IMG/VR virus record: IMGVR_UViG_3300012204_000025
Span: 1 to 25,292 of that record
Length of the DNA stretch: 25,292 nt
Direction: 5' to 3' (one strand)
Origin: a virus
Made by a program: the position numbers and the translations under genes. Below, piece after piece: positions 162 through 11,384 of this stretch (its first letter is position 1; every line of letters starts with the position of its first letter). The notes below the pieces were generated by a model that had not been told where the DNA came from, searched no databases, and was given only the letters and a program-made list of their open reading frames with translations.

Positions 162-620
162 TCAGCCGACCTTGACCCACTCGCCGCAACCGCGCGACTC
201 GAATGCCGTGTCGGTCTTCTTGATGGTGACCGTCTGCGGACCATTGCCGAGATGATTGGTGATGATCGAACCCAGCGATCCATCCAGATCGCGGAGACGC
301 GCCCAGTAGCAGAAGTCGTCACCGTTGGTCTTGTACTCGCCGGACTCGACGTCGACGCCGACCTTGCGGGTTCCGTCGGAGAACGTGGCTGGCTTGGCCT
401 TGGTCGGCGCCGGCTTCTTCACGGCCGGTGAGGGAGTGGAGTTGAGTGTCGGCCGGCTGAACGAGGGGTTCGATCCGGCGTCGGGAGTCGTGGTGCTGGC
501 AGCCGCGCCCAGGATCAGGCCGACGATCAGCGCGGTGAGAAAGACGATCGGGTAGACGAAGAAATGGACGAGCGAGCGCTTCGTCTTGGGTGCCTTGAAC
601 TGCGCGTGATACTCGGACAT
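162..620 (-). CDS. Membrane-anchored extracytoplasmic protein, 152 aa
   Basis: The start is ATG at 620, behind a strong SD (AGGAGG, 6 nt spacing). A short basic cytoplasmic N-terminus (KAPKTKR) is followed by a hydrophobic segment at about residues 18-40, then a Pro/Thr/Ser/Lys-rich linker (about 41-78). The compact C-terminal domain (about 80-152) has two cysteines, C104 and C145, that could form a disulfide, and segments YWARLRDLDGS and TVTIKKTDTAFESRGCGEW. This layout resembles small secreted or lipoprotein-like domains of actinobacteria, but here it follows a transmembrane anchor and I see no lipobox. It lies directly downstream of the structured interval at 641-747. A role at the host surface, such as superinfection control, is only a guess. 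The gene looks GC-richer than the region just upstream. Confidence 0.85.
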   Translation of the reverse strand: MSEYHAQFKAPKTKRSLVHFFVYPIVFLTALIVGLILGAAASTTTPDAGSNPSFSRPTLNSTPSPAVKKPAPTKAKPATFSDGTRKVGVDVESGEYKTNGDDFCYWARLRDLDGSLGSIITNHLGNGPQTVTIKKTDTAFESRGCGEWVKVG

Positions 621-640: not shown

Positions 641-656
641 AAAAATAAAAGGTGAG
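641..656 (-). repeat. 16-nt U-rich 3' element, copy 1
   Basis: The minus strand reads CTCACCTTTTATTTTT, identical to the copy at 782-797. Each copy ends a hairpin-rich interval that begins with a P1/P2-type promoter. This fits a shared transcript 3' end or a shared protein or RNA binding site. Confidence 0.6.
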
Positions 657-687
657 GATGTGTTAGTCTCACGGGTAATGACACATC
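657..687 (-). other. Hairpin 2 of candidate RNA A
   Basis: The arms at 657-663 and 681-687 are perfectly complementary (7 bp). The 17-nt loop includes the 13-nt motif at 667-679, which is also in the loop of the hairpin at 705-734. It lies just upstream of the T-rich run at 641-650 (minus-strand reading), so it may be the stem of a terminator or attenuator. Confidence 0.55.
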
Positions 688-704
688 GGATAGACTTCTT
701 TATA

Positions 705-734
705 GAATCAAGTTCTCACGGGTAATCTTGATTC
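705..734 (-). other. Hairpin 1 of candidate RNA A
   Basis: The arms at 705-712 and 727-734 are perfectly complementary (8 bp). The 14-nt loop contains the 13-nt motif at 714-726, identical to that at 667-679. The stem sequences of the two hairpins differ, so the shared loop is not explained by simple duplication of the whole hairpin. Confidence 0.55.
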
Positions 735-749
735 GGAAGTTGTCTCTTC

Positions 750-783
750 TCTCACTATAGGCTCTGTAATTCTTGCGAGACAA
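750..783 (-). promoter_or_regulatory. Promoter-like element P1
   Basis: Minus-strand TTGTCT (778-783), 18-bp spacer, TATAGT (754-759), then GAGA. It shares the pattern TCGC-N7-ACA-N5-TATA(A/G)TGAGA with P2 to P5. It would start a transcript near 747 that crosses the twin hairpins and could continue into the gene at 620. Confidence 0.65.
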
Positions 784-797
784 AAATAAAAGGTGAG
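782..797 (-). repeat. 16-nt U-rich 3' element, copy 2
   Basis: Identical to 641-656 over 16 nt. It lies 4 nt downstream (minus-strand direction) of the hairpin at 803-823, and its T run touches the -35 region of P1 (778-783). The base before the repeat extends it to TCTCAC, which is complementary to GTGAGA in the loops of the hairpins at 657-687 and 705-734. Confidence 0.6.
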
Positions 798-902
798 AAG
801 GTAACAGTCCAACGAAAACTGTTCATTAACTAGCTATCTCTATCGCTAGCACTCCGGGTAGGTATCGCGCCTACACATTCGTGTCTCGGAATCCTTTCGG
901 AT
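783..902 (-). ncRNA. Candidate small RNA B with several hairpins
   Basis: This interval lies between promoter-like elements P2 and P1 and has no convincing gene. On the minus strand it folds locally as follows. A GATCC/GGATT stem closes a GAAA tetraloop (890-903). A 5-bp stem has arms 858-862 and 870-874, mutually exclusive with an ACAC/GTGT stem at 873-884. A 5-bp stem has arms 830-834 and 845-849. A 6-bp stem has arms 803-808 and 818-823. It ends in the same CTCACC plus T-rich element as candidate RNA A. No tRNA T-loop motif or cloverleaf was found. Promoter, stem series and U-rich end together suggest a small RNA of about 120 nt. Confidence 0.45.
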
Positions 903-904
903 CT

Positions 905-938
905 TCTCATTATAAGGCCTGTGATTCTTGCGAGACAA
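905..938 (-). promoter_or_regulatory. Promoter-like element P2
   Basis: Minus-strand TTGTCT (933-938), 18-bp spacer, perfect TATAAT (909-914), then GAGA. Its -35 overlaps the T run of the terminator at 937-966, so the terminator of one unit and the promoter of the next are interlocked. The predicted start is near 902, at the beginning of candidate RNA B. Confidence 0.7.
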
Positions 939-975: not shown

Positions 976-1158
976 TCAGACTTCGTCCATCTCGTAATAC
1001 TCGTCGAACAGGTCCTTCTCCTTCAGGAAGTCGTTGAAGGACTTCGCGGTCCTCATCTGCAGGGCGGCGGCCGCGGTAGCGGTAACGACGACTGCGATGG
1101 CAACTCGGTGGTCAGCAACGAACTTCTTGACGGATTGGGTCTTGGCCTTGACGGTCAT
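976..1158 (-). CDS. Small single-span membrane protein, 60 aa
   Basis: The start is ATG at 1158 behind GAAAGGAAA; a longer frame beginning at 1188 would overlap the promoter and lacks an SD. A basic N-terminus (KAKTQSVKKF) precedes an Ala/Val-rich hydrophobic stretch at about residues 17-33 and an acidic C-terminus (DLFDEYYEMDE). The central segment RTAKSFNDFLKEKDL resembles small membrane proteins I associate with actinobacterial phages, of unknown function. It has its own promoter-like element (P3, 1183-1216) and terminator (937-966), so it looks like a one-gene transcription unit. The role is unknown. Confidence 0.8.
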   Translation of the reverse strand: MTVKAKTQSVKKFVADHRVAIAVVVTATAAAALQMRTAKSFNDFLKEKDLFDEYYEMDEV

Positions 1159-1182: not shown

Positions 1183-1216
1183 TCTCATTATAGCCCCTGT
1201 AAATTTCGCGAAAGGA
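1183..1216 (-). promoter_or_regulatory. Promoter-like element P3
   Basis: Perfect minus-strand TATAAT (1187-1192) followed by GAGACCCC. The 18 bp upstream have the family's CGC and ACA positions. The -35 position reads TCCTTT, a poor match to TTGACA, so recognition may depend on the conserved CGC and ACA elements or on an activator. It lies about 25 nt upstream of the ATG at 1158. Confidence 0.65.
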
Positions 1217-1252: not shown

Positions 1253-1471
1253 CTACTTCTTGGTTCCATGGTGGATGGCGATCTCTTCGGCAACGTGCAC
1301 GATTGCGGCAGCAGCGATCACGGAAGCAACGCAGATGGCAGCGGTCTTCAGCACACCAGTGGCAACATCGATGATGTCGTCCTTGGGGAACTGATTCGCA
1401 GGCTCGGCGGGCTCCTGGATCTTGTTGTCGGTCTTGGCAACGCGGATTCGGATCTCACGATTCTTGAACAT
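1253..1471 (-). CDS. Small single-span membrane protein, 72 aa
   Basis: The start is ATG at 1471 behind GAAAGGACAATC; the in-frame ATG at 1495 would lie inside the promoter-like element and lacks an SD. The N-terminal 25 residues are charged (MFKNREIRIRVAKTDNK). A hydrophobic segment at about residues 41-58 (LKTAAICVASVIAAAAIV) is followed by HVAEEIAIHHGTKK. It has its own promoter-like element (P4) and terminator (1216-1243). It resembles other short MFK-type membrane proteins of actinobacterial phages in layout only. No function can be assigned. Confidence 0.8.
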   Translation of the reverse strand: MFKNREIRIRVAKTDNKIQEPAEPANQFPKDDIIDVATGVLKTAAICVASVIAAAAIVHVAEEIAIHHGTKK

Positions 1472-1489: not shown

Positions 1490-1523
1490 TCTCATTATAG
1501 CCTCTGTAAACCCTGCGAAGGGA
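1490..1523 (-). promoter_or_regulatory. Promoter-like element P4
   Basis: Perfect minus-strand TATAAT (1494-1499) followed by GAGACC, with the shared CGC and ACA positions in the 18-bp spacer. The -35 position is TCCCTT. It precedes the ATG at 1471 by about 22 nt, giving a very short leader with the SD inside it. Confidence 0.65.
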
Positions 1524-1628: not shown

Positions 1629-1916
1629 TCAGCGCGCTTTCAGCACGAAGCTCAGGGCCTTCGAGGTCACGACGTGAGCTTTCTCGTGTCCCACGATCAT
1701 CAAGATTCCGGCGAGGTTTCCAGCAACGATCGCAATCGTATCCGGACTTACGCGCTTGGGAGCATTGTTGCTCTTCAGCCCGTATAGTGTGGATAGATGT
1801 GCGACCATTGTGGCGTACTCGTCAGAAGCCTTGTCGTACGTGGTCATGTCGATCAGCAGACTGTCGATTTCCGCGTTTAGAAGCCTGTCTTCGCGTTGGG
1901 GCTTAACGGCGAACAT
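1629..1916 (-). CDS. Small membrane protein of RVSPDT type, 95 aa
   Basis: The start is ATG at 1916 (MFAVKPQRED) behind TTAGGAG with 6 nt spacing. The upstream in-frame ATG at 1931 overlaps the promoter region and has no SD. Residues 1-55 are hydrophilic and probably helical (LLNAEIDSLLIDMTTYDKASDEYATMVAHL). They are followed by KRVSPDTIAIVAGNLAGIL, a hydrophobic segment at about 60-77, and GHEKAHVVTSKALSF. I recognise this RVSPDT...GHE...VVTSKA pattern from other phages of actinobacteria, where the function is unknown. It has its own promoter-like element P5 and a downstream stem-loop. Confidence 0.85.
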   Translation of the reverse strand: MFAVKPQREDRLLNAEIDSLLIDMTTYDKASDEYATMVAHLSTLYGLKSNNAPKRVSPDTIAIVAGNLAGILMIVGHEKAHVVTSKALSFVLKAR

Positions 1917-1936: not shown

Positions 1937-1970
1937 TCTCATTATAGGAGATGTAACTTACGCGACCCCA
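1937..1970 (-). promoter_or_regulatory. Promoter-like element P5
   Basis: Perfect minus-strand TATAAT (1941-1946) followed by GAGACCCC, with the CGC and ACA positions of the family. The -35 position (TGGGGT) is poor. It begins 3 nt after the holin stop codon, with no terminator between, so read-through from the late operon and a separate start here could both supply the gene at 1916. Confidence 0.6.
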
Positions 1971-6123: not shown

Positions 6124-9100
6124 TACGTCAGAGCTCCCTTCGCTACGGACAGTTGGTTCTTGGTTTGGCGATAGATCTCGGCGTTGCTTAGCGCCTTGGG
6201 CGAGTTGTTGATCTGTGTGAATGACACTGCAGCTGCAGCTTCTTGTTCAAACTCAGCCATTTGCTGTGCAATCCTTAGAGCTGCTGCGGCCGTAGATATA
6301 TCTTTGGCCCGTGCCGTGGATGTAGTAACGTCAATCGGAAGGACCTTCATCATTCCGCTGATTGACGTAGCGTTCTTCTTCACATCCGTCAGATCAAGAA
6401 CCGGACGAATAATCGGCCTGAACGAAGGATCGGTTACCAGGATGCTTGAAACTCCCGACATTGTCTTACGAAGAGACTCAATGGCTTGATCGCCAACACT
6501 CTTAGCAGACTCCGATACGACATCTGCATACTGATCCAAACCACGAGCCATACCCTCGGCTGAATATCGACCGATCTCAGCCATGATCTTGGAAGGCGAC
6601 TTGATGCCCAGAGATTTCTTGATCGTAGCGACCATTCGAGCGGCAAGAGCATCCATCACCTTTTCGAGCGCAGCCTGCTGAGACTGCAATCCCTTGACAA
6701 GACCAACCGCCGCAGAAATTCCGGCGTTGTACAGCGCACCAGAAGCCTGGTTGCCGAGGCTTGCGCCGGCAACATTCAGATCCTTCTCGAGCTTGTTGAC
6801 TTCGTTTACAGCCGCCTGTCCGCCAGCGAGAAGGTTCTCTGCAAACGGAAGAGCAGTAATACCCTTAGCCAACAGATCCCTGTACAACTCGTCATTCAGA
6901 CCCTTTGCCCGAAGCTTCGCGAGAATATTAGCAAACTTCTTGACATCCGCGAGTTGCTTCTTGCCGGCATCGACGAATTCCCTCGCCGACTGAGCGTCTT
7001 CTGGCGTAGCTAGATCCGAATACTGCTCAGTGATGCTGGCTCGGTAGTCGTTACGAGCCTGGACCAAGTTGTTCACACTTTGGCGCGCAGCATTGATCTT
7101 CGACGTGTACTGGTCGTACCTAACCGCCAGCTTGCCGAGCTGAGCCTGCTCGTCCTTCAGATGCTTGTTCGTCGTGATGTATGCGAAGTGGATCTTGTTG
7201 ATTTCGGAGCGAGTCTGAGCAATCGCAGCGCGGACCTTGTTGATCTCTGCCGTATTCCTGAGAACTCCAGGAGCTTCCAGCTTCTTCAACTTGGCCTGAA
7301 GCGTCGCAAGCCGCGCCAGCTCCGTCTTCTGGAGACTGGACATCTGCTGCTTCAGAGACTTGAACGCTGCGTCGATCTGGCCCTTGTTGCCGTCCAGACC
7401 CTTGATGAAGCCCTGGTTGACGTACTTACCGAGCTTCTCGAATTCCTTCGAAGGGGAACTGATCCCAAGGATATCTTTAGCCGCGTTCAACGCGCCCTGC
7501 GCAGCTTCCTTAGCCTTGCTGGCGATGCGACCGGCGCCGGACCCCAGACCTCTTACCATTCCCTCAACAACGGCTAGGCCCAAGTTTGCGCCTGCTTCGC
7601 CCATTGCACTGGAATTAGCGCGAATGGAAGCAGCAACGCCGTTGATGAAGCTGATTATCAGATTCGTGCCAGCTTGAATAATCCGAGGCAGGCTTGCTGC
7701 GACTCCATTGATGAAGTTCACAGCCACATCCGTACCAGCCTTGACCAGCTGCGGCATCTTCGCCGCGAGAGCCTTCAGAATGGCGAGCATGATCCTCAGA
7801 CCTGCGTCGGCCATCATCGGAGCGTAACGCACCATAGCGCTGAGCATATGTGCCAGCATAACGCCGAGTGTTTGAACGATCTTCGGCGTCAGCTTGATGA
7901 TCGCATTCAACAATGCAGTCAGAACAGCGACAATGGCTTGAACAACCGCCGGAGCCGCTTTCCTGATCGCGTTTGCAAAGGCGACCATCGTCGCGCCCAA
8001 CTTCGTAACAATCTCAGGAAGGAAGTTGAGAATGGCTCTGATCGCACCGATCAGAACGCCAACTGCAGCTCCACCTGCGGCAGCGACTGCCGTCAAGCCG
8101 AGGCCGAACAGGAACAAGCCGGCGCCGGCCGCAAGCATACCGACACCCAATAGACCGACTGCAACGCCTAGAGCGAGCAGAATCGGCGTGAGAGGTGCAA
8201 GCACAAGCCCGGCGGCACCAAGCACGACAAATACGCCTGCTAGCATGAGCAGACTCTTGCCGATCTCGCCTAGAGACATTTGGCCGAAAGCCATGACCAC
8301 GGGAGCAAGAACGCGAAGCGATGCGGCAGCAACAAGAAGTGCTGCTGAACCCGCAAGTGTGCCCGTCATCAGGTACAGTGCAGCCGCGATGATCCCGAGA
8401 GAACCCGCTAGGGTAACGAGACCCTTAGCGATTTCCTCCCAGCTCATTCCGCCCATAGTTCCGAGAGCCGTAGCGATCATTCCGAGCGAAGATGCTACGA
8501 CAAATATCGCTGCCGCCGAGAGAAGCGTAGACGGAGGAAGAAGTGCCAATGCAGCTGCTATCAGCGTTAAAGCTCCAGCCATCGCGGTAAGACCCTTAGC
8601 GATTTCACTCCACTTCAAGCCGCCCATAGCGCCAATAGCTTCGCCAATACGACTCAAAGAAGCCGCGACAATAAATATGCCTGCGGCGGAGAGCAGTGAA
8701 GATGGAGGAACCAATGCCAACGCAACAGCCATGACGGTAAGACCGCCGGCCATAGCGACCAATCCACGGGCAATTTCTCCCCATGATAGCTGGCCTAGAA
8801 TTTGCATAGCCCCCGCTAAAATCTTGATACCCTCTGCGAGTAGCAAGAGGCCGGCGCCTTGTGCGATACCGCCAGCATTTGCGGAGCTGAATTTGGTGAA
8901 GAGGGCAAGTGATACAAGAAGCGCCGCGACACCGATCAAGCCCTTGGTCATGTCGGCCCAGCTGATGTCGGAGAAACTCTTTACTGCCTTGACGAGGATG
9001 TTGATGCCCGTAGCCAAGAGAATTATTCCGACCCCTGATGTGGCGTTTGCGGTAGAGAATCGGGCAAAGAGAGACAATGAAGCGAGCAGAACTGCTACGC

Positions 9101-11384
9101 CTGTGAGACCCTTTGCCAGTTCGTTCCAATTCAGTGCGGCCAACTTGGAGACCGCGACGGCCAATAGATCCATCGCGATGGCCAGAGCGATCATTGAAGC
9201 TGTCATGAACGGCATCTTCAAGAATCCCTTAGATGCCACAATCTTCTCAAATATGGCCATTGCGCCCAGAAGCTGCGTAAACATGATGCCTAGAGCACTT
9301 AGCGCCGAGGCAAGCTTCTTAGAATCGATAAGCGACAAAGCGACAACCGACACGGTCAACAATGCGATAGCGCCGGCAATCTTGAGAAGAGCATTGGCCT
9401 TCAGTTGTGCCTGCATGGCAGACATTACGCTGGTCAAACCCTCGAACGACTGCTTGATGCTCTTGAGGAAACCTCCGCCAAGATCGACGTTGATTCCGCC
9501 GGACAAGAACTTCTTGAACAAGAGCACAAGCCCCGCAAGCAATCCAGTGTTGACTGCGTCCAAGACACCGCTGAAGTTGGAACCGCTGAAACTCTTCTCG
9601 ACTGCATTGCCGAAACCTGAGAAGAATTCTGTGAACTTGTCCACGATGGGTTCAAAGGCCCGCATTACAGCCGTGAATATCTTGATTATTCCCGACCAAG
9701 CTTTCGCGATTCCTTCGCCGAGCTTTCCAAGAGGAGCGAAACGCGCGCTCAGATTGCCTAGACCCACAGATCCTAGATCGACGCCAGAGACGAGATCCTT
9801 GATAAGACCGATGACGATCTTGAGGAATATGATCGGCGCGGCAAGAACCTTACCGAGACCGACGAAGAATTGCGTAAATCCCTCACCACTCTTGATCGCC
9901 TTATCCAGAGCTACGAGCCAGTCTCCGATGTTTCCGGTGAACTCGAGAATCCCACCGGACCCACCCTTGAATGACGAGAACATCGTGGCGATTGCCGTGA
10001 TAATGCCCTTGACGATCTGGATACCGATGTCGAAAATGGCGAAGATTCCCCGGAAAGTCCTCCGGAGATTATCGACGGTCTTCTGTCCTGGCTTGAGCGC
10101 AGCCATGAAGTTTCGGAATATAACCGTCAGTCGGAATAGACTCTCGCCGGTTTGTGGCGGGAAAATATCCCGGAACGCATCCTTGATCGGCTTTATCACC
10201 GTAACCAAAGCGCTGAATGCGTTGGATATGCCCTTGATAAGAACGGTTCGTCCACCAAGTGCTTTCCAGTCACCGAGAACTTTGTTGCGAGCATTGGCTG
10301 ACGTCTGAATAAACCCGCCAAGAACATTGCTGACGTTGGTGAACAACGATCGAGCCTCATCGAAATCACCGAAGAGAAGCTGGAAAGTCCTAGACCAACC
10401 AGAACCAACGGCTTCTTGCAGAGTGTCGATCAGCTGAGAGACCGTCTTGACCTTGGTAGCGGCATCCTGAGCTGTCTTACCCATCTTGAGGATGCCGGCG
10501 ATCTGCTGATCGGTGTACCCCATCGTCTTGAGCTGCTTGGCGTTCAGGTCACCGGTGAACTTGCCGAGAGTTTCCGTCAGAACCTCAGAGGTGAGCCACC
10601 CCGTCTGAAGAGAATCCCTGAAACTTCCTTCATCCTTGATGATCTGGTCCACGGCGACACCGTGAGCTCGGGCAGTCTCCTTCAGAGATTCCTGGAAGAC
10701 CTTTCCGCCCATTCCGGCATTGACGACCGAGTTCCAGTCCATCAACGACACACGACCAGAAGCCAAAGCCTGAGAAAGCTGATACATCGCAGTGGAAGCT
10801 TGCTCAGCATTCGAACCCGAAACCGCTGCGAGGTTGGCGATACCCTTGATGGCCGCGGTCGAAGTCTTCAGATCGACGCCGGCAGCTGTAAAGGTGCCGA
10901 TATTTCGAGCCATCTGAGAGAAGTTGTAGATGGTCTTGTCGGAATATGTGTTCAGGTTATTCAGGGCGGCGTTGACCTGATTGAGACCCTTCTGACCTTC
11001 AAGACCTGTGTTCGCCAAAATCGTCTGAATCGAGTTCAGGTTGGTCTCATACTCCTGAAGACCAGCCTTGAGCGGACCAACCGTCAGATTCTTGAGCATG
11101 GCGGCGCCCGTGAGAGCAGCCTTGCCTGCGATTGATGCCAGAGCGGCAGTGCCGACGACGCCCAGTGTGCTGAACCTGCTGGAGATGGTCTGCAAATGAG
11201 ACGCGATATTCCCCAGGTTGAACTTCGAAGCACTTGAGGCCAGATGATCCAGGCCTGAAGTAGCGCCTTCCATCTTGAGACCCTTTTTCAGGTTCTCAAG
11301 AGACTTCAAGGAGGACTGGATCCCCCTCTCGAACTCGGAGTTCTTGAACTGCATCTCGACTATGCGAGAGTCGATGCTGCTCAT
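6123..11384 (-). CDS. Tape measure protein, 1753 aa
   Basis: This fixes tail length and is carried in the tube lumen. The start is ATG at 11384 (MSSIDSRIVEMQFKNSEFE) with GGTGA 7 nt upstream and an ATGA overlap with the preceding gene; the in-frame ATG at 11405 lacks an SD. The N-terminal part (about residues 90-350) holds the conserved tape measure region (TYSDKTIYNFSQMARNIGTF, GRVSLMDWNSVVNAGMGG). The centre (8.2-9.2 kb) has six degenerate repeats of about 57 residues around (W/L)xEIAKGL, strongly hydrophobic. The C-terminal part has two SPSK...G...GL motifs separated by a coiled coil. At about 1.5 angstrom per residue the tail would be near 260 nm (inference). Confidence 0.97.
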   Translation of the reverse strand: MSSIDSRIVEMQFKNSEFERGIQSSLKSLENLKKGLKMEGATSGLDHLASSASKFNLGNIASHLQTISSRFSTLGVVGTAALASIAGKAALTGAAMLKNLTVGPLKAGLQEYETNLNSIQTILANTGLEGQKGLNQVNAALNNLNTYSDKTIYNFSQMARNIGTFTAAGVDLKTSTAAIKGIANLAAVSGSNAEQASTAMYQLSQALASGRVSLMDWNSVVNAGMGGKVFQESLKETARAHGVAVDQIIKDEGSFRDSLQTGWLTSEVLTETLGKFTGDLNAKQLKTMGYTDQQIAGILKMGKTAQDAATKVKTVSQLIDTLQEAVGSGWSRTFQLLFGDFDEARSLFTNVSNVLGGFIQTSANARNKVLGDWKALGGRTVLIKGISNAFSALVTVIKPIKDAFRDIFPPQTGESLFRLTVIFRNFMAALKPGQKTVDNLRRTFRGIFAIFDIGIQIVKGIITAIATMFSSFKGGSGGILEFTGNIGDWLVALDKAIKSGEGFTQFFVGLGKVLAAPIIFLKIVIGLIKDLVSGVDLGSVGLGNLSARFAPLGKLGEGIAKAWSGIIKIFTAVMRAFEPIVDKFTEFFSGFGNAVEKSFSGSNFSGVLDAVNTGLLAGLVLLFKKFLSGGINVDLGGGFLKSIKQSFEGLTSVMSAMQAQLKANALLKIAGAIALLTVSVVALSLIDSKKLASALSALGIMFTQLLGAMAIFEKIVASKGFLKMPFMTASMIALAIAMDLLAVAVSKLAALNWNELAKGLTGVAVLLASLSLFARFSTANATSGVGIILLATGINILVKAVKSFSDISWADMTKGLIGVAALLVSLALFTKFSSANAGGIAQGAGLLLLAEGIKILAGAMQILGQLSWGEIARGLVAMAGGLTVMAVALALVPPSSLLSAAGIFIVAASLSRIGEAIGAMGGLKWSEIAKGLTAMAGALTLIAAALALLPPSTLLSAAAIFVVASSLGMIATALGTMGGMSWEEIAKGLVTLAGSLGIIAAALYLMTGTLAGSAALLVAAASLRVLAPVVMAFGQMSLGEIGKSLLMLAGVFVVLGAAGLVLAPLTPILLALGVAVGLLGVGMLAAGAGLFLFGLGLTAVAAAGGAAVGVLIGAIRAILNFLPEIVTKLGATMVAFANAIRKAAPAVVQAIVAVLTALLNAIIKLTPKIVQTLGVMLAHMLSAMVRYAPMMADAGLRIMLAILKALAAKMPQLVKAGTDVAVNFINGVAASLPRIIQAGTNLIISFINGVAASIRANSSAMGEAGANLGLAVVEGMVRGLGSGAGRIASKAKEAAQGALNAAKDILGISSPSKEFEKLGKYVNQGFIKGLDGNKGQIDAAFKSLKQQMSSLQKTELARLATLQAKLKKLEAPGVLRNTAEINKVRAAIAQTRSEINKIHFAYITTNKHLKDEQAQLGKLAVRYDQYTSKINAARQSVNNLVQARNDYRASITEQYSDLATPEDAQSAREFVDAGKKQLADVKKFANILAKLRAKGLNDELYRDLLAKGITALPFAENLLAGGQAAVNEVNKLEKDLNVAGASLGNQASGALYNAGISAAVGLVKGLQSQQAALEKVMDALAARMVATIKKSLGIKSPSKIMAEIGRYSAEGMARGLDQYADVVSESAKSVGDQAIESLRKTMSGVSSILVTDPSFRPIIRPVLDLTDVKKNATSISGMMKVLPIDVTTSTARAKDISTAAAALRIAQQMAEFEQEAAAAVSFTQINNSPKALSNAEIYRQTKNQLSVAKGALT
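8250..9140 (-). repeat. Six degenerate ~57-residue repeats inside tape measure gene
   Basis: The core motifs WNELAKGL, WADMTKGL, WGEIARGL, WSEIAKGL, WEEIAKGL and LGEIGKSL lie near 9125, 8955, 8775, 8604, 8433 and 8263, a spacing of about 170-180 nt. Each is followed by a hydrophobic block such as MAGALTLIAAALALL. The two near 8775 and 8604 are the most alike. The array probably forms membrane-seeking helices. Confidence 0.75.

Follow-up and report, generated by a model that had tools for sequence, protein, structure and literature searches.

Phage small RNAs, phage single-chain RNA polymerases and pseudo-tRNAs are known kinds of element. Type III toxin-antitoxin RNAs (ToxI-like) are small RNAs carried by phages or plasmids, which consist of repeated structured units with a terminator. 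YonO, the single-chain RNA polymerase of the Bacillus phage SPbeta, transcribes the late genes of the phage; transcription starts upstream of an unannotated non-coding RNA, and the promoter sequence was stated to be undetermined (PMC5467207). For gp64, the non-virion RNA polymerase of phage P23-45, the assigned promoter is a less conserved GC-rich motif (PMC10770324). Among pseudo-tRNAs, tRNAOther of Bacillus cereus served as the comparison case (PMC3399842).

The DNA studied here (the window) is a 25,292-nucleotide virus fragment, IMG/VR record IMGVR_UViG_3300012204_000025. The terminase has about 85% identity with its counterparts in Gordonia phages (e.g. Duffington) and in the Streptomyces phage ClubPenguin, indicating that the window is a fragment of an actinophage of this kind. 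A DNA-level similarity search of the window against phages gave no match. Genes of 95, 72 and 60 residues lie behind the holin gene, each preceded by a copy of a promoter motif, and are followed by two more copies, P2 and P1 (Table 1). Each of the latter stands before a hairpin-rich stretch which an earlier note on this sequence had described as lacking a convincing gene; a check for ORFs found none in either unit. The best explanation, which we hold to be probable, is that two tandem small-RNA genes lie here, in the late accessory part of the genome of a siphophage of actinobacteria. Sequence comparison shows that both belong to a TCGC-N15-TATA regulon which tracks with a QDE-1-like phage polymerase, and that the P2 RNA represents a conserved pseudoknotted family. 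The 95-residue gene is followed by a long imperfect inverted repeat at 1553-1606 with arms of 21 nt and a loop of 12 nt, apparently its terminator.

Table 1. Features assigned in the P1-P2 region of the window (sequences are given in the sense of the transcript)
Feature	Position	Strand	Remarks
Promoter P2	905..933 (motif match 905-936)	-	TCGCA 933-929, ACA 922-920, TATA 914-911
P2 start region	+1 = A910; initial TGAGA 909-905	-	assigned from promoter logo
Promoter P1	750..778 (motif match 750-781)	-	TCGCA 778-774, TTACA, TATA 759-756, +1 = G755
Third promoter copy	1183..1211 (motif match 1183-1214)	-	before 60-residue gene
Fourth promoter copy	1490..1518 (motif match 1490-1521)	-	before 72-residue gene
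Fifth promoter copy	1937..1965 (motif match 1937-1968)	-	before 95-residue gene
Predicted P2 small RNA, 129 nt	782..910	-	HMM, covariance model, covariation
Closing stem, 5' arm UGAGAAG	903..909	-	pairs with 800-794 (7 pairs); in unconstrained minimum-energy fold; kept and covarying in relatives
Extra hairpin AUCC-GAAA-GGAU	891..902	-	window's subclass only: L296, L212, L266, L311
Helix, 5' strand UCCG	887..890	-	pairs with CGGA 856-853; 5/5 family pairs double-changed
Pseudoknot strand ACGAA	878..882	-	pairs with UUCGU 816-812
T-arm-like hairpin GUAGG-CGCGAUA-CCUAC	858..874	-	5/5 pairs double-changed
Helix, 3' strand CGGA	853..856	-	partner of UCCG 887..890
Variable hairpin CUAGC...GCUAG	830..849	-	sequence comparison and fold
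Hairpin AACAGU-UUUCGUUGG-ACUGUU	803..823	-	loop carries second pseudoknot strand 816-812
3' closing arm CUUCUCA (800-794), CC and U-tract	782..800	-	predicted terminator from the RNA's two ends
Predicted P1 RNA, 115 nt	641..755	-	leader of ORF 162-620, small RNA or both; has promoter, closing stem, U-tract and two perfect hairpins
P1 hairpin A	705..734	-	stem GAAUCAAG/CUUGAUUC, loop AUUACCCGUGAGAA
P1 hairpin B	657..687	-	stem GAUGUGU/ACACAUC, loop CAUUACCCGUGAGACUA, same 13-nt core as hairpin A
CUCACC and U-tract, end of P1 unit	641..656	-	CUCAC 656-652 pairs with GUGAG 755-751
95-residue gene	1629-1916	-	phrog_5818; behind fifth promoter copy
72-residue gene	1253-1471	-	behind fourth promoter copy
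60-residue gene	976..1158	-	phrog_12653; upstream of P2; terminator hairpin 936-972
152-residue membrane protein gene	162..620	-	downstream of P1; only weak database matches

The five copies of the promoter motif in the window are all on the minus strand, and none occurred in 100 dinucleotide shuffles. P1 and P2, already noted as near-identical and about 155 bp apart, are the last two copies in the direction of transcription, with a spacing of 155 bp. Duffington, ClubPenguin and many metagenomic phages carry the motif in the corresponding part of their genomes. A logo of 330 distinct aligned sites has T-23 C-22 G-21 C-20 A-19, an A/T stretch, A-12 C-11 A-10 and TATA at -4 to -1, followed by (A 0.75 / G 0.24) T G A G A; the strength of these letters is partly a matter of construction because the search pattern included ACA, TATA and TGAG, and sites without the upstream TCG were discarded. 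TCGC is present too in phages found by other routes than this pattern. The motif is abbreviated here as TCGC-N15-TATA.

P1 and P2 had originally been taken for promoters of the sigma-70 type. As ordinary host promoters (TTGTCT-18-TATAAT, starts near 902 and 747) they score sigma-70-like, having a TATAAT-like -10 and a partial -35 element at 17-18 bp. Across the 330 aligned sites, however, no -35 element is conserved, TTGACA-like or other; the conserved elements are TCGC at -23, TATA at -4 and the (A/G)TGAGA behind it. Moreover, the 3' arms of the units are complementary to bases from +2/+3 on, which would remain untranscribed if the start lay 7 nt downstream, and the promoter diverges in step with a phage polymerase (both described below). 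Recognition by the host enzyme is thus improbable, and, to judge from the aligned sites, the promoter of P1 and P2 is a phage promoter and not a sigma-70 one.

The 16-mer CTCACCTTTTATTTTT (CTCACC plus a T-rich run), reported to be identical at the ends of the two units, was confirmed at 782-797 and 641-656 on the minus strand. It had 114 exact matches in viral contigs, mostly unrelated, and one contig recovered in this way (L052) carries a unit ending with the same CTTCTCACCTTTTATTTTT as P2. Between promoters spaced by less than 190 bp there are 26 units, nearly all ORF-less, in which the bases after TATA are complementary to those preceding the U-tract. Since the first bases of the RNA pair with the last ones before the U-tract, the start appears to lie right after TATA and not at 902 and 747, the 5' ends assigned earlier. 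Most simply, transcription would start at the purine following TATA and the two RNA ends would build the terminator stem; the transcripts are then likely to be 910-782 (129 nt) and 755-641 (115 nt).

Folding was consistent with the revised ends. With the 5' ends at 902 and 747 the folds were modest (z -1.4 and -1.8). From 910 the P2 RNA reached -35.0 kcal/mol (z -2.5, 4 of 500 shuffles) and from 755 the P1 RNA -23.2 kcal/mol (z -2.1, 22 of 500 shuffles), and both formed the 5'/3' closing stem in the unconstrained minimum-energy fold. Among 23 members of the P2 family, positions +3 to +6 and +8 are paired in all 23 and +7 in 22, and AG/CT (12) and GG/CC (9) substitute for each other. A control in which 5' ends were swapped among sites gave 62.9 of 381, against 109 of 381 observed; the control is high because most 5' ends share GAGARG, so that for the closing stem the counts of covariation weigh more. 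In the mechanism that we propose, the phage polymerase would start at the purine right after TATA (910, 755), and pairing of the first 5-8 bases of the RNA with those preceding the U-tract would end transcription there. This would yield two stable RNAs, about 129 and 115 nt long, whose ends are paired.

With the window and L266 left out of the profile, nhmmer still detected P2 at 888-795 on the minus strand (E 3.1e-12, 40.7 bits), and the covariance model R1, whose training set included the window, scored it at 81.1 bits. Further matches of R1 were found in the Gordonia phages Avazak and Petito, the Rhodococcus phage ReqiPepy6, the Arthrobacter phage Sporto and additional contigs. The Avazak copy lies in an unannotated intergenic gap, whereas in ReqiPepy6 the RNA stands in tandem behind an annotated 'tRNA-OTHER', again making two RNA units. 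In a MAFFT alignment of 24 members, RNAalifold found double compensatory changes at 16 of 19 pairs. The chosen structure including the pseudoknot had 93.6% of cells paired, compared with 74.4% in shuffled alignments (none of 500 reached it) and 33-42% when the partners were slid. Because the helices were picked after inspection of the sequences, weight should be placed on the compensatory changes and not on these percentages. Three helices have double changes in all five pairs each; one of them, the hairpin at 803..823, is 96.7% paired. At the position of the T-arm-like hairpin L266 has a canonical CCAGG-UUCGAGU-CCUGG. The pseudoknot, present also in the window's P2, joins the GACACGAA loop to the UUUUCGUUGG loop. 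Over the 24 sequences it has 91.7% of cells paired and double changes at three of five pairs, and its G37-C116 pair is exchanged for U-A in five sequences and for C-G in one. The stems of P2 were thus found to co-vary in its relatives rather than to vary freely.

Searches of known RNA families did not identify the units. Against Rfam 15, positions 1-2500 of the window gave a single chance-level match (E 0.23) outside both units, and the whole window together with seven P2-family loci gave no match at the RNA. Neither ARAGORN nor RF00005 found a tRNA or tmRNA in the window. Two contigs carrying a P2-family RNA also contain a Pistol ribozyme above the Rfam cut-off (L254 11377-11437, minus strand; L226 13144-13206, plus strand).

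If the intervals were insulating terminator-promoter spacers whose hairpins have no function as RNA, they would suit a region that is a string of small genes each with its own promoter, and other promoter copies are indeed preceded by terminator hairpins as well. The plain terminators of this region, however, are simple hairpins of 12-13 bp, unlike P2, and compensation has kept the helices and the pseudoknot of P2 in phages of three host genera and in many contigs. We regard mere spacers as very improbable. The small-RNA reading of P2 is strongly supported, because it has 24 relatives with compensatory changes, a pseudoknot, and recurs as its own promoter-terminator unit; on this comparative evidence P2 appears to be a genuine small-RNA gene and its family a widespread, pseudoknotted and apparently undescribed phage RNA family.

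The stems of the two P1 hairpins are unrelated, but both hairpins carry the same 13-nt loop, AUUACCCGUGAGA. The longest direct repeat among 1000 shuffles was 10 nt, so the shared loop is beyond chance, which suggests a candidate binding site used twice and under selection. Hairpins that share a loop segment on different stems followed 37 of 430 promoter sites as against 12 in the control, a rough mononucleotide shuffle; strong cases with other loops occurred in L252 (18 nt), L201 (17) and L199 (14). No homologue of P1 was found, and its loop plus tail had no match in viral contigs; its closing stem, GUGAG/CUCAC, is short (5 bp). The claim of the earlier note that each unit makes a small RNA can therefore be upheld to different degrees: P2 has the family evidence given above, while for P1 the promoter, the terminator, the twin same-loop hairpins and analogy support it.

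P1 may, in addition, act as a leader for the 152-residue gene: downstream of P2 no other promoter precedes ORF 162-620, and none separates the U-tract of P1 from the ORF. Partial read-through of the P1 terminator would then allow expression of the protein. More generally, both units could be cis-acting leaders that control the gene behind them by attenuation or in a riboswitch-like manner, and most metagenomic P2-family members do have a ribosome-binding site and a small gene without its own promoter directly behind, the start codon lying 14-42 nt past the terminator. Such direct adjacency makes a leader or attenuator role possible, least doubtfully for P1. The genes downstream of P2-family RNAs, however, are of many kinds and differ between members with no one kind associated, which is unlike riboswitches. 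In the window (P2), in Gordonia and Rhodococcus phages and in several contigs a further promoter stands behind the RNA, leaving nothing to be controlled in cis. In addition, the closing stem itself is the terminator, and no conserved, mutually exclusive antiterminator is present. Leaders are on balance possible but rather unlikely, and both the diversity of the downstream genes and the promoter that follows favour P2 as an RNA acting in trans. We infer, with less weight, that the RNAs may act in trans and engage a protein, either as its structured ligand or as a decoy: P2 by way of its T-arm-like hairpin and pseudoknot, P1 by two copies of one loop.

The proposed explanation also involves the polymerase with which the promoter is associated. 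Gene 91 of Duffington codes for a 900-aa protein annotated as hypothetical, which belongs to phrog_4291, 'RNA-dependent RNA polymerase'; such a gene is absent from the 25-kb window fragment. The sequence SGADFDGD is invariant among 32 relatives, and the Duffington protein has helix-turn-helix-like ends. The AlphaFold model (mean pLDDT 80.5, pTM 0.65) had Neurospora QDE-1 as best fold match in the PDB (E 7e-10), followed by the RNA polymerases 8f5m (deposited as phage P74 gp62) and 8f72 (P32 gp64) and then by that of the crAss-like phi14:2. Global TM-scores were low, about 0.3, so that the match shows the kind of polymerase and not a near relative. In this sense phrog_4291 is predicted to be a QDE-1-like (DxDGD, two-barrel) single-chain RNA polymerase. 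A search with PF00940 (T7-like single-subunit enzymes) matched none of 13 records, the positive control being likewise without signal.

Polymerase and promoter tend to occur together. Phrog_4291 was detected in 20 of 24 records picked by the motif, whereas the 20 background contigs had neither polymerase nor motif. All 19 actinophage records carried the polymerase and 17 of them the strict motif. When 20 long records were picked by the polymerase, the strict motif was present in nine, essentially those at least 49% identical to the Duffington enzyme. A looser pattern, TCGC-N15-TATARTR, was found in 18 of 22 polymerase-bearing records (missing from four) versus none of 21 without polymerase (Fisher p 1.4e-8); 121 of its 122 sites in the former were on the majority strand. 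Several phages with more diverged polymerases have altered promoters: TATAGTAGAA in G067 (L513), TATAATGCAAAC in G075 (L518) and TATAATGAAAC in G072 (L516), and a TATARTA variant in both Curtobacterium phages, in each case with TCGC at unchanged distance. This co-divergence fits a polymerase and its own promoter; shared ancestry could partly contribute too. The evidence for the pairing consists of co-occurrence and co-divergence, from which we infer that the phage polymerase reads the TCGC-TATA promoter.

Other RNAs occupy the same type of promoter unit. tRNA-like RNAs were observed at L262 945-1011, L387 507-579 (ReqiPepy6 41206-41278), L271 1913-1981 (minus strand) and L293 8714-8780 and 9102-9168. 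Their anticodon loop is shortened or absent, with a GCAA tetraloop in L262 and ReqiPepy6. They exceed the Rfam tRNA cut-off, and ARAGORN calls none in L262; judged by cloverleaf, ARAGORN or RF00005, the units of L262 and ReqiPepy6 count as tRNAs. Clusters of different small-RNA units were seen in single phages (L252 ~9630-11157, L278 5009-5341 and L201 11226-11846, minus strand), and a class of about 62 nt recurs within clusters (L252, L256, L323, L201). It is conceivable, though doubtful, that phages with this QDE-1-like polymerase run a dedicated RNA regulon, in which the TCGC-TATA promoter would yield stable trans-acting RNAs as decoys against host proteins, e.g. tRNA-targeting defences. 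Its members would include the pseudoknotted P2 family, same-loop hairpin sponges of the P1 type, and tRNA mimics that lack an anticodon and carry a GNRA tetraloop.

No earlier description of a P1-/P2-type promoter or of P2-family or P1 RNAs was found in the literature searched, a coverage outside which many subscription papers lie. Neither Rfam nor this literature contained the RNA family, the promoter or the link between that promoter and this branch of polymerases, all of which are apparently new. The P2 family is well supported, apparently unnamed and present in cultured phages, and can therefore be tested now. TCGC-TATA provides a large branch of the single-chain RNA polymerases with a candidate promoter. 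It opens the way to operon maps of more than 200 sequenced actinophages carrying a homologue of the 95-residue gene, and may serve in actinobacteria as part of an orthogonal polymerase-promoter pair. The results also point to a layer of RNA genes hidden in phage genomes that were annotated without any.

Compared with the known systems, the polymerase resembles YonO in being single-chain and related to multi-subunit RNA polymerases, and five of nine actinophage enzymes weakly match the YonO family phrog_8308 (best 2e-5), which is nevertheless a separate PHROG family. Direct profile comparison by hhalign gave nothing meaningful, leaving the weak PHROG matches. SPbeta contains neither the strict nor the loose motif. 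In SPbeta NC_001884 near 59.87 kb (L337 about 7866-7885, minus strand) TTATAATGGGTC was noticed in the yonN-yonK gap, the region of the YonO start, and TTATAATGGG near 59.87 kb is a candidate site for the published start (2225998, strain 168). With gp64 of P23-45 and its relatives the likeness lies in a single-chain two-barrel phage RNA polymerase and phage promoters repeated over the genome; the predicted fold of the Duffington enzyme matches the solved structures 8f5m and 8f72, whereas a sequence-level search of the PDB gave no match. The phages related to the window differ in their hosts and in their strong TCGC-N15-TATA-(A/G)TGAGA motif. P1 is loosely like ToxI-type RNAs in its repeated structured units and terminator. 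Unlike theirs, its hairpins share the loop only and not the stems, and no endoRNase toxin gene was identified beside it, the weak matches of the 152-residue membrane protein including none to such a toxin. Finally, P2 differs from the tRNA-OTHER or pseudo-tRNA type in that it lacks a D arm and an acceptor stem arranged as in tRNA, contains a pseudoknot and fails the Rfam tRNA model. Both have the same promoter-terminator packaging and a T-arm-like hairpin, and the tRNA-OTHER of ReqiPepy6 (41206-41278) adjoins a P2-family RNA.
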